From Hypericibacter adhaerens (GTDB taxonomy: Bacteria; Pseudomonadota; Alphaproteobacteria; Dongiales; Dongiaceae), in the NCBI RefSeq assembly GCF_008728835.1, contig NZ_CP042582.1:2507001-2571000 (forward strand): a DNA stretch of 64,000 nucleotides. Reading direction: 5' to 3'. Below, one piece after another: positions 21,829-50,516 of this stretch (the stretch's first letter is position 1; every line of letters starts with the position of its first letter). The notes under the pieces are model-generated. The model did no database searches and had not been told where the DNA came from. It saw nothing but the letters and a program-made list of their open reading frames with translations. The position numbers and the translations under genes were made by a program.

Positions 21829-22446
21829 ATGATAGATAAAGAAAAATTCATTGGCGACGGGTACTGGCTGCTGCCGCCGGGCAAGCTGGCCAATGTCGTC
21901 GTCTGCCTCGAGATGACGGCGAAACCGACCCAGCGACCGGTGCCGCAGCGGGACAGACCCTTCGCGTTGGAGCGGATGCCGGGCCCGGATCTCGGCGCCT
22001 ACCGGGCCTTGTTCCGGCGCATCGGCGAGGACTGGATGTGGTTCTCGCGGCTCAAGATGCCCGACGACCGGCTGCACGCGATCCTGGCCGATCCCGCGGT
22101 CGAGGTCTTCGTGCTGAAGGAAGACCAGATCCATATCGGGCTGCTGGAGCTGGATTTCCGCGAGGAGGGCCAGTGCGAGCTGGCGTTCTTCGGGCTGGTG
22201 CCGGAGGCGATCGGCCAGGGCGCCGGGCGCTTCCTCATGGACCAGGCCATCCAGAAGGCCTGGGCGCGGCCCATCCGGCGGCTCTGGGTCCATACCTGCA
22301 GCTTCGATCACCCGGGCGCGTTGGGCTTCTACCGCCGCTCCGGCTTCGTGCCTTACGCCTATGCGGTCGAGGTCCATGACGATCCGCGGCTGACGGGCCA
22401 TCTGCCGCGCACGGCTTCGCCGCAGATTCCGCTGATCGAGAAGTAG
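21829..22446 (+). CDS. GNAT-family N-acetyltransferase
   Basis: This 205-residue protein has GNAT motif A in ELAFFGLVPEAIGQGAGRFL, with acetyl-CoA loop QGAGRFL, and a typical C-terminal LWVHTCSFDHPGALGFYRRS strand-helix. The closing FYRRSGFVPYAY is also family-like. No Shine-Dalgarno precedes ATG 21829. A TATAAG at 21818-21823 would put transcription at or after that ATG, so a leaderless start or a start at ATG 21913 is possible. The substrate is unknown. Confidence 0.8.
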   Translation: MIDKEKFIGDGYWLLPPGKLANVVVCLEMTAKPTQRPVPQRDRPFALERMPGPDLGAYRALFRRIGEDWMWFSRLKMPDDRLHAILADPAVEVFVLKEDQIHIGLLELDFREEGQCELAFFGLVPEAIGQGAGRFLMDQAIQKAWARPIRRLWVHTCSFDHPGALGFYRRSGFVPYAYAVEVHDDPRLTGHLPRTASPQIPLIEK

Positions 22447-22649
22447 TCGCCCGGTCAGAACGCGGAGTTCGCGGCGGCATGAGAGGTCTCCGACCGCAGA
22501 GGACGCCATGAGAATTGCAAGGACGGGCGGCTCTTGACGGCCGGATCGCCTGAGAACAGGGCCTTTGCAGGGATCCGCCGGCATCAGCATTTCCCAAGCC
22601 GCTGGAGATACGTCTTTTTTCAAACACCACTCAGTTTATGGGGCGCCCC
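22447..22649. other. Intergenic stretch with no gene
   Basis: This is the left half of a 402-base gap between the GNAT gene and the 3' end of mazG. It contains a GGGGCGCCCC palindrome (22640-22649) and scattered short repeats. Open frames here are antisense extensions or have poor composition, and I see no supported gene. Confidence 0.6.
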
Positions 22650-22674
22650 AAAAACAGGCCCGGAACAGGGCCCT
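22650..22674 (-). terminator. Intrinsic-terminator-like hairpin for the candidate sRNA
   Basis: On the minus strand GGCCC, a 6-base loop and GGGCC (plus-strand 22657-22672) form a GC stem, extended by one G-U pair. A U-rich TGTTTTT tail follows (plus-strand A run 22650-22654). The T run exists only on the minus strand, so the terminator is directional. Confidence 0.5.
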
Positions 22675-22792
22675 ATCAGGCAAGGAACAGGCGCTTGACG
22701 GTGGCCCGCCGGTCCCTCGGGATCGCCCCGGAGCGATCGTGAATGCCGGGATCCGACCTTGTCCGATCTCCGCGGGCCGGGTCTTTCTCTCT
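22650..22792 (-). ncRNA. Candidate SOS-regulated small RNA
   Basis: A promoter containing a LexA-type box (22799-22827) points into a region with no ATG on the minus strand that ends at an intrinsic-terminator-like hairpin, giving a transcript of about 140 nt. Its interior can fold: a 7-bp long-range stem (plus-strand 22703-22709 with 22772-22778) encloses a 6-bp hairpin (22721-22726 with 22733-22738). No minus-strand gene lies downstream for more than 1.7 kb, so this is not a leader of a protein gene. The call is inference from signals; no homologue is recognised. Hfq is encoded nearby. Confidence 0.4.
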
Positions 22793-22798
22793 TCTCGC

Positions 22799-22827
22799 AG
22801 CTTAGAACAAAAAGAGAACAATATCAA
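22799..22827 (-). promoter_or_regulatory. Candidate SOS promoter with LexA box (GTTC-N7-GTTC)
   Basis: On the minus strand TTGATA (22827-22822), exactly 17 bases, then TAAGCT (22804-22799). The spacer holds GTTCTCTTTTTGTTC (22805-22819), fitting the alphaproteobacterial LexA box. It agrees with the lexA box at 47490-47504 in all 8 fixed bases and 4 of 7 spacer bases. The -10 is a weak match, and a box of 8 fixed bases can occur by chance in this length of DNA. Confidence 0.5.
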
Positions 22828-22848: not shown

Positions 22849-23685
22849 TTAACGCTCTTCCTGTTTGACCGCTTGCCAGAGCGCCTCCAGCGCATCGAGC
22901 CCCGGCCGGGTGCCGGGGTCATGGCGCTGGGCCAGCAGCGCCTCCAGCCGGCGGAAGCGGCGCTCGAACTTGGCATTGGCGCCGCGCAGGGTCTGCTCGG
23001 GATCGAGCTCCAGATGGCGGGCGAGGTTGGTGACGGCGAAGAGCAAGTCGCCGACCTCGTCGGCCAGCCGGTCCCGGCCGCTGCCCTGGACCAGCTCCGC
23101 TTTGATCTCGTCGACCTCCTCGACGATCTTGTCGAGCACCGGGGCGGCCTCGGGCCAGTCGAACCCGATCCGCGCGGCGCGCTTCTGCAGCTTGGCGGCG
23201 CGGGTCAGGGCCGGCAGCCCCAACGGCAGGCCGTCGAGCTGGCTGGCGGCCGCGCCCTTGGCGGCGGCCTCGGCGGCGCGTTCGCCGGCCTTCTGTTCCT
23301 CCCAGGCGAGGGTCTGGGCGTCGGCGCTGTCCACGGCGCCGTCCGCGAAGACATGCGGATGGCGGCGGATCATCTTGTCGTTGAGGGTCCGGACGATGTC
23401 GTCGAATTCGTAGAGGCCGCGCTCGCGGGCCATCTGAGCGTAGAAGATCACCTGGAACAGGAGATCGCCGAGCTCGCTCTTGAGCTCGTCCATCCGGCCG
23501 CGCTCGATGGCGTCGGCCACCTCGTAGGCTTCCTCGATCGTGTGCGGGACAATGGTGGGGAAGTCCTGCTCGAGATCCCAGGGACAGCCGGCCGCCGGAT
23601 CGCGCAGCCGCGCCATGATGGCCAGCAGCCGGTCGATCGGCGCCAGGTTTTCGGACGGGGCGGCCTTGAGCTTGGATGGGGTCAT
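22849..23685 (-). CDS. mazG: Nucleoside triphosphate pyrophosphohydrolase MazG
   Basis: This 278-residue protein has two MazG repeats. The first shows AAGCPWDLEQDFPTIVPHTI, EEAYEVADAIE and ELKSELGDLLFQVIF, with the E-x2-E...E-x2-D Mg-binding pattern. The second repeat carries EVDEIKAELVQG and RLADEVGDLLFAVTN. The enzyme hydrolyses NTPs to NMPs, clearing aberrant nucleotides or lowering (p)ppGpp-linked pools. ATG 23685 fits the family length; the frame extends 19 codons further upstream without conservation. A run of 14 G lies about 90-103 bases upstream. Confidence 0.93.
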   Translation of the reverse strand: MTPSKLKAAPSENLAPIDRLLAIMARLRDPAAGCPWDLEQDFPTIVPHTIEEAYEVADAIERGRMDELKSELGDLLFQVIFYAQMARERGLYEFDDIVRTLNDKMIRRHPHVFADGAVDSADAQTLAWEEQKAGERAAEAAAKGAAASQLDGLPLGLPALTRAAKLQKRAARIGFDWPEAAPVLDKIVEEVDEIKAELVQGSGRDRLADEVGDLLFAVTNLARHLELDPEQTLRGANAKFERRFRRLEALLAQRHDPGTRPGLDALEALWQAVKQEER

Positions 23686-23774
23686 CGCGCGACTCTTGGG
23701 AGGGTTCAGGGGCAACTTAGCGAGGGTCGAAGCAGGCCCCAAGCGGCAGTCCGATAACGGAGGAGAAGAGCCGC

Positions 23775-47475: not shown

Positions 47476-47504
47476 TTGACCCCTGTCAGGAACCAAACTA
47501 GAAC
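47476..47504 (+). promoter_or_regulatory. lexA promoter with LexA box (GTTC-N7-GTTC)
   Basis: TTGACC (47476-47481), 17 bases, TAGAAC (47499-47504). GAACCAAACTAGAAC at 47490-47504 is the reverse-strand form of the alphaproteobacterial SOS box GTTC-N7-GTTC and covers the -10. LexA bound here would block its own transcription. Confidence 0.8.
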
Positions 47505-49010: not shown

Positions 49011-50516
49011 TCAGAGGTCGTGCCCCGAATAGGAGCAGTTGAAGGACTTATTGCAGAGCGGGAAGTCGGCGACGATGTTGCCCTCGATCGCCGCCTCCAG
49101 CAGCGGCCACTGGAACCAGGAGGGATCGCGCAGATGGCAGCGCGCGACCTTGCCGTCCGCGCCCAGCCGCAGCCAGGCCAGGATGTCGCCGCGGAAGCCT
49201 TCGACCATCGCCATGCCCTCGCCACCGGCGCCGGGGAGCGCCGTCCGAAGCTCACCCGCGGGCAGGCGGTCGAGGATCTGCTCGATCAGCGCCAGGCTCT
49301 GCTCCACCTCCCGGATCCGGATCCAGACCCGAGCGTTCACGTCGCCTTCGGTAAGCACCGTCACCTCGAAGGCGAGCTGGTCGTAAGGCGCATAGGGCAA
49401 GCTGCGCCGCGTGTCGAAATCCCGGCCCGAGGCCCGACCGATATAGCCGCCGCAGCCGAAACGCCGCGCCAGCTCCGGCTTCACCACGCCGGTGCTGACG
49501 GTGCGGTCCTGGAGCGAGGCGCTGTTGTCGTAGAGCTTGATCAGGGTCGGGAATTGCCGCCGCGCCTCGGCGACCAGGGCGCGGATCGCCGCGATCCCGT
49601 CGCTGCCGAGATCGGCCGCGACGCCACCGGGCAGGATGCGGTCGCGCATCAGGCGATGGCCGAAGCCGGTATTGGCCGCGCGCAGCACTTGCTCGCGCAG
49701 GGTCTGGCAATGGGCCTGCATCACGCTGAAGGAGGCATCGTTGCAGATGGCGCCGATATCGCCGAAATGGTTGGCAAGACGCTCCATCTCGGCCATGAGG
49801 GCCCGGAGCCAGACGGCGCGGGCCGGCGGCGCGATCTCCAGCGCGGCTTCGGCCGCCCGCGCGAAGGCCAGGGCATAAGCGACCGTGCTGTCGCCCGAGA
49901 CCCGGCCCGCGAGCTTGGCGGCGCGCTCCAGATCGGCACCCATCATCAGGCCGTCGATGCCTTTGTGGGTGTAGCCGAGGCGTTGCTCGAGGCGCACCAC
50001 GGCTTCGCCGTTCGCGGTGAAGCGGAAATGGCCGGGCTCGATGATGCCGGCGTGGACCGGCCCCACGGGGATCTGGTGCAGGCCCTCGCCTTCCGCGGCC
50101 AGGAACTCGTAAGGCCGCGCGGCCGCGGCCTCGCTGCGGTCCCCCAGCGGATGGCCATGGCCCCAGCGGCCATGATCGAGCCAGGGACGCTCGTCGGCAG
50201 CACCCTGGGGCGCCAGGCCGAAGAGGTCGTTCATCGTGCGTTCGAGCCGGATCGCCGGCGCATGCAGCGCGCCGATCGAGGGGAAGCGGCGGTCGGTGCA
50301 ATCGAGGGAGAGGACCGCGATCATTCCTTCCTGCGGATCGCGAAGCGCCATATGGGCCGCCGCCGCCTCGCCCCAGAGGCTGAGCAGCGTCCAGTCTCCC
50401 TCGGCGAGCCGCTGGCCCGCGAGCCGCCAGCGCTCGGCATCGACGGTGGCGCGCGGCCAAGGGCGGTGGTCCGGTGCGGGGCGGCCCTGTCGGATCAGCT
50501 CGGCCAATGTCGTCAT
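49011..50516 (-). CDS. hyfG: HyfG-like (NuoCD-type) large subunit lacking N-terminal Ni ligands
   Basis: This 501-residue fusion has an N-terminal NuoC-like domain (to about 130) and a NuoD/49-kDa-like domain with HQIPVGPVHAGIIEPGHFRF and LGYTHKGIDGLMMGADLERA. Where [NiFe] enzymes have R-x-C-G-x-C, this protein reads RVSGDS at residues 205-210, so both cysteines are replaced. The C-terminus has only PLCNKSFNCSYSGHDL, without the CxxC form. A hydrogenase reaction is therefore unlikely. The frame stays open upstream through hyfF, but ATG 50516 (MTTLAELIRQG) starts the family domain. Confidence 0.88.
   Translation of the reverse strand: MTTLAELIRQGRPAPDHRPWPRATVDAERWRLAGQRLAEGDWTLLSLWGEAAAAHMALRDPQEGMIAVLSLDCTDRRFPSIGALHAPAIRLERTMNDLFGLAPQGAADERPWLDHGRWGHGHPLGDRSEAAAARPYEFLAAEGEGLHQIPVGPVHAGIIEPGHFRFTANGEAVVRLEQRLGYTHKGIDGLMMGADLERAAKLAGRVSGDSTVAYALAFARAAEAALEIAPPARAVWLRALMAEMERLANHFGDIGAICNDASFSVMQAHCQTLREQVLRAANTGFGHRLMRDRILPGGVAADLGSDGIAAIRALVAEARRQFPTLIKLYDNSASLQDRTVSTGVVKPELARRFGCGGYIGRASGRDFDTRRSLPYAPYDQLAFEVTVLTEGDVNARVWIRIREVEQSLALIEQILDRLPAGELRTALPGAGGEGMAMVEGFRGDILAWLRLGADGKVARCHLRDPSWFQWPLLEAAIEGNIVADFPLCNKSFNCSYSGHDL

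Follow-up and report, generated by a model that had tools for sequence, protein, structure and literature searches.

A short DNA element is present in nine paralogous copies (A-I) scattered over the 5.87-Mb genome of Hypericibacter adhaerens (G000) and, among the genomes searched, is restricted to it. Copy A occupies positions 22540..22827 on the minus strand of the window (the whole 64,000-nucleotide stretch of DNA that was analysed) and is composed of a LexA-box promoter, a leader, and a core. On balance, the family is best regarded as an SOS-controlled, probably phage-derived dispersed element that is noncoding in most copies and whose core is more likely a protein-binding DNA site or a spacer than an RNA. 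Each copy would constitute a solitary transcription unit, laid out as promoter, variable-length leader, and core of approx. 158 bp, the last including four short repeats and a 36-bp terminal block; LexA, bound to the box in the spacer, would keep the sigma-70 promoter closed, and DNA damage, by removing LexA, would allow transcription through the core. The presumed ancestor is the control region, under SOS regulation, of a phage-type gene; most copies would have lost the ORF of that gene or never had it, and would now make noncoding RNA alone. A dispersed, mostly geneless family that has a LexA box and promoter among its best-kept features is unusual; if the reading is true, the genome contains nine coordinated noncoding units controlled by DNA damage. 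The initial annotation had proposed a LexA-controlled small RNA between 22650 and 22827. The promoter and LexA box that it placed there are borne out, but the unit runs on to approx. 22540 and is part of a dispersed family that the annotation had not seen.

A nine-copy family found in one of the genomes searched

The nine copies were found by DNA search; when they were used to build a covariance model, it retrieved these loci from the genome and no others. Their pairwise identity is 55-80%, and their tree is star-like. Neither the DNA search nor the covariance model found the element in the same-genus genome G001. It was also not found in 15 other genomes of the family (17 were searched, including the two already named) or in the rest of a 385-genome sample of the class (approx. 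380 further genomes), which was searched under stricter filters than the family genomes. No element DNA was found in phage and plasmid records, an Rfam search gave 0 matches at E values up to 5, and no description of the family was found in the open-access literature searched. A pattern scan of the genomes of 84,980 species and of IMG/VR returned 37 + 1 stretches; in the 27 of these 38 to which the covariance model was applied, the best score was 18.9 bits compared with 120-170 bits for true copies, and the stretches were therefore treated as chance matches.

Copy A is preceded by the co-oriented mazG gene (22849..23742, minus strand; PF03819) and followed by a convergent GNAT acetyltransferase gene (21829..22446, plus strand; PF00583), and no minus-strand gene follows closely, as had been claimed. 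This setting is typical of the family: most copies sit 3' of a co-oriented gene, and for most of them the next recognised downstream gene is convergent. The gap between mazG and the GNAT gene measures approx. 47 bp in G001 versus 400 bp in G000; G001 is too diverged to provide clean empty sites for comparison. Like MITEs and REP-type elements, the element is short, dispersed, and mostly located between convergent genes. It differs from them in carrying its own putative LexA-controlled promoter; visual inspection of the aligned flanks of all nine copies recognised neither terminal inverted repeats nor target duplications. Copies C, D, and E (L040, L041, and L042) have approx. 120 bp 5' of the promoter in common, with GCTGTCCGATC and a stretch resembling GATGACGTCGCTGTTCCGCTTCGCC among them; thus, the full element may be longer.

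Some neighbouring genes deserve mention. In L040, a TumE-type toxin gene and, after it, a gene for an HVO_A0114-type regulator lie approx. 300-940 bp beyond the point where copy C begins; directly 3' of copy C, these two genes are likely a toxin-antitoxin pair. Near copy G lies a ThiF/E1-like gene (L042:1007-2360, minus strand; PADLOC E1-E2, Pfam ThiF), which adjoins a gene whose 86-aa product gives a weak ubiquitin-like match.

The promoter and its LexA box

The minus-strand promoter of copy A consists of a -35 hexamer, TTGATA (22822..22827; read from the sequence and the nine-copy alignment), and a -10 hexamer, TAAGCT (22799..22804; nine-copy comparison), separated by 17 bases. The spacer is occupied by a LexA box, GTTCTCTTTTTGTTC (22805..22819, minus strand), of the GTTCN7GTTC type. 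Both features are present exactly where the initial annotation had placed them (22827-22799 and 22819-22805, respectively), and both are kept in the nine paralogues. In copies C, D, E, and F, the -35 hexamer is TTGACA. The TA of the -10 hexamer is invariant across copies, and the remainder is nearer to consensus elsewhere, e.g., TAAAAT in copy B and TATGAT in copy G; the hexamer of copy A departs too far from consensus to be picked up by the promoter scan, and 0 promoters were called.

Taken alone, the LexA box of copy A is weak evidence because GTTCN7GTTC occurs three times in the window versus 0.79 expected. The two further matches lie at 47490-47504 (minus strand) and 50229-50243 (plus strand). 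What raises promoter and box above chance is that the nine paralogues keep both and that the composite string is restricted to the family. A sigma-70 promoter encloses the box in 9/9 copies. Both half-sites are intact in eight copies and the second in all nine, so that 71 of the 72 half-site bases are kept, and the first three bases of N7 vary freely. The string TTGAYATTGTTCN7GTTCTA has seven matches in the genome, every one within the element family, and was found in none of the 384 other class members examined; a reversed-pattern control gave 0. Moreover, the region upstream of recA in the same genome contains GTTCTCTTTTTGATC, which is nearly identical to the copy A box. Judged from the sequence, the promoter and LexA box of copy A are well supported as real features, and LexA would be expected to bind and repress at all nine putative boxes.

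The box agrees with those of alphaproteobacterial LexA/SOS promoters in sequence (GTTCN7GTTC), spacing, and position within the promoter. However, what follows the promoter of the element is not a repair gene but a dispersed unit, in most copies without an ORF. Nine IMG/VR contigs have a similar promoter string, and none of them contains the core. The string TTGAYATTGTTCNNNNTTTGTTCTA recurs in IMG/VR contigs L125, L126, L127, and L129-L132, in some of which ORFs with signal-peptide-like starts come next. Another relevant comparison is with the damage-induced sRNAs of Caulobacter (e.g., ChvR), near which no SOS box was found (PMC6237742); the same is true of the alphaproteobacterial damage-induced sRNAs found in the literature. 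The element would resemble these sRNAs as an alphaproteobacterial noncoding transcript raised by DNA damage, a response predicted here from its promoter, but differs from them in having the box built into the promoter and in being present in nine copies.

The putative transcribed region and its probable phage origin

Identity over the nine copies is highest in three blocks, namely the promoter (0.88), the 5' block of the core (0.87), and the terminal block R2 (0.89), and lower in the middle (0.71), after R2 (0.73), and in the upstream flank (0.66). The conserved core extends approx. 110 bp past the terminator claimed in the initial annotation, and the nine copies share no ORF in it. In the nine-copy alignment, its 5' block (22653..22691, minus strand) comprises four CYTGWT direct repeats with an exact 11-bp spacing, which is found in eight copies (E and F deviate by one base) and is imperfect in copy I. 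The repeat columns are more conserved than the intervening bases (0.935 versus 0.789). As the spacing corresponds to one helical turn, the arrangement suggests that the repeats are a protein-binding site on DNA. The 36-bp block R2 (...CAAAGGCCCTGTTCTCAGGC; 22548..22583, minus strand) is likewise conserved in the nine-copy comparison. Pair counts pointed to a small, imperfect palindrome of the TCCA...TTGG type (22592..22607, minus strand), one pair of which is changed on both sides in two copies. R2 and the 5' block of the core (here 22640-22680) resemble a diverged internal duplication (CCTGNNAAGGCCCTGTTC), whose score exceeds that of shuffles in several copies, most clearly in A, B, and E.

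The RNA proposed initially was to end at an intrinsic terminator near 22650 and to contain a long-range stem enclosing a hairpin. A terminator-like hairpin with a GTTTTT tail is indeed present at 22656..22673 on the minus strand (the terminator scan found one such site versus 0.4 expected), but it is not shared by the family as a whole: it is fully paired in copy A alone, 66.7% of its cells are paired over the nine copies, and terminator-like sites occur at this position in three of them (A, G, and H). The claimed stems lie in 22675-22798, and a segment of similar length is kept by copy D alone. Most of that interval is a variable leader (22698..22798, minus strand), which in the nine-copy comparison can be aligned with copy D and partly with copy H and is mostly missing in the others; stem and hairpin are thus not conserved. 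The covariation check that had been suggested yielded nothing in the terminator hairpin. RNAalifold and pair counts gave a single pair with two-sided changes, and compensatory changes did not exceed those in shuffles, in a comparison whose power is limited to that of nine paralogues. Folding-energy z-scores were -0.9 and -1.2. Given that terminator and stems are unconserved, that the core lies mostly downstream of them, that covariation is lacking, and that copy D leads into an ORF, a discrete, terminated sRNA of approx. 120-140 nt ending at 22650 is not supported. The part of the proposal that survives, well supported by the nine paralogues, is a promoter predicted to be under LexA control, with no conserved ORF behind it.

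A broader version of the RNA hypothesis would make the copies a multicopy family of SOS-induced, trans-acting sRNAs of approx. 150-260 nt that base-pair with mRNAs, perhaps with Hfq. Promoter and core are conserved in ORF-less copies, and most copies have no close co-oriented gene downstream, as this hypothesis would predict. The folding and covariation results, the unconserved terminator, and the lack of an Rfam family nevertheless make it unlikely, as does the absence of the element from every relative searched, which is contrary to what is seen for most regulatory sRNAs. A trans-acting sRNA function is possible, and conservation in the ORF-less copies could equally reflect a functional RNA; still, the core is more likely to be a protein-binding DNA site or a transcribed spacer than a base-pairing sRNA.

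The suggestion of a phage-type ancestor comes from copy D, in which the core is followed by GGGAGTGAAATCC, an ATG, and an ORF of 101 aa. The ORF matches Pfam PF18932 (DUF5681) over a short stretch at 28.0 bits versus a cut-off of 27.5, is also matched in PHROG, and shares 41-50% identity with phage proteins over 60-80 aa. Relatives of the ORF in IMG/VR contigs and in Acetobacter phage phiAX1 lie directly 5' of a terminase-large-subunit-like gene, which was recognised by its sequence and by the portal gene that comes after it rather than by a profile search; this is the position of the small terminase. The copy D ORF is related to these proteins, but copy D itself is not beside a terminase large subunit gene, and neither this nor any other phage gene was recognised next to it. 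Conversely, copy D has the core, which was not found in the loci of the phage relatives. Because copy D continues into an RBS and a DUF5681 ORF, descent from the control region of a phage-type gene appears most likely, with the proviso that the argument draws on one copy, with the sole intact ORF and a short match close to the cut-off. Copy D could instead have captured the ORF later, and the star-like tree does not decide between the two.

Copies B and E keep traces of the start of the DUF5681 ORF, which is thus lost or broken in eight of the nine copies. Together with the star-like tree and the location of many copies in gaps between convergent genes, where an insertion does little harm, this might indicate that the copies are functionless, decaying remnants of a single SOS-controlled gene region of phage type, their conservation being due to recent spread and not to selection. 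Such an explanation is less probable still than a family of trans-acting sRNAs, since promoter, 11-bp repeats, and R2 stand at 0.87-0.89 identity against 0.66-0.71 for the middle and flank, and the retention of 71 of the 72 half-site bases departs widely from neutral expectation at such divergence. An SOS-controlled element of probable phage descent remains the preferred reading.

Copy H and the resident CRISPR-Cas9 locus

In copy H (L044; genome positions 3898695-3898927), the R2 homologue serves as the repeat of a small array. Four 36-nt repeats, identical but for one first-base difference, are spaced 65-66 nt apart by unique spacers of 29, 30, and 30 nt; near-identical direct repeats with unique spacers of near-equal length are what defines a CRISPR array. 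The third spacer (S3) matches genome positions 5546802-5546831 exactly over 30 nt, inside a chromosomal gene that by eye is TPR/glycosyltransferase-like. S1 and S2 have no good match in the genome or in the parts of IMG/VR searched, and the copy H spacers gave nothing above chance against a phage collection and no match in those parts of IMG/VR.

The genome also contains a resident type II-C-like locus (5284174-5301130; L050 and L051), the end of whose array lies approx. 1.5 kb from copy D. Its array has 185 copies of one 36-nt repeat, separated by spacers that with few exceptions measure 30 nt; the locus further comprises Cas9, the only Cas1 in the genome, and a tracrRNA candidate bearing an anti-repeat upstream of cas9. 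Copy H and the resident array have the same 36/30 geometry but different repeat sequences: alignment scores between the R2/H repeat and the resident repeat are no better than those of shuffles. No convincing similarity was found between the core and the resident tracrRNA or array flanks. One borderline similarity, to the terminator end of the resident array, was reached by 1 of 300 shuffles in one of ten tests and was taken as chance. The resident spacers share no 18-nt match with the element loci, and about two thirds of the resident array, compared with phages, gave no match. A search for TnpB/Cas12f (PF07282) found none in the genome, with positive controls; IscB RRXRR (PF14239) also gave no match, in a search whose controls were silent as well.

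These findings make it very unlikely that the element is itself a CRISPR-related unit, i.e., a promoter, tracr-like leader, and single repeat forming an empty mini-array or guide RNA of which copy H is the filled version: the array of copy H, its exact self match, and the geometry shared with the resident type II array favour such a unit, but its repeat and core resemble neither the resident repeat nor tracrRNA, the genome has a single Cas1 and no TnpB/Cas12f zinc-ribbon match, and eight of the nine copies have one repeat and no spacer. Integration of spacers at off-target sites is a known phenomenon, and the simplest account of the copy H array is off-target integration by the resident Cas1-Cas2; alternatively, it is what is left of a CRISPR system since lost. 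More tentatively, R2 might offer the resident type II-C Cas1-Cas2 an integration site; copies of the element could then seed arrays on an SOS promoter, and copy H would be a natural neo-CRISPR array at an early stage, with a self spacer, a scenario that is unlikely. Ectopic (neo-) CRISPR arrays are similar in that a non-CRISPR sequence is duplicated, here at 36 bp, around inserts of 29-30 nt, one of them self-derived. Copy H differs from them in being natural, in lying on a dispersed element, and in having a repeat unrelated to the resident one. It is thus a natural case of a CRISPR array on sequence of non-resident type and bears on the question of how arrays originate.
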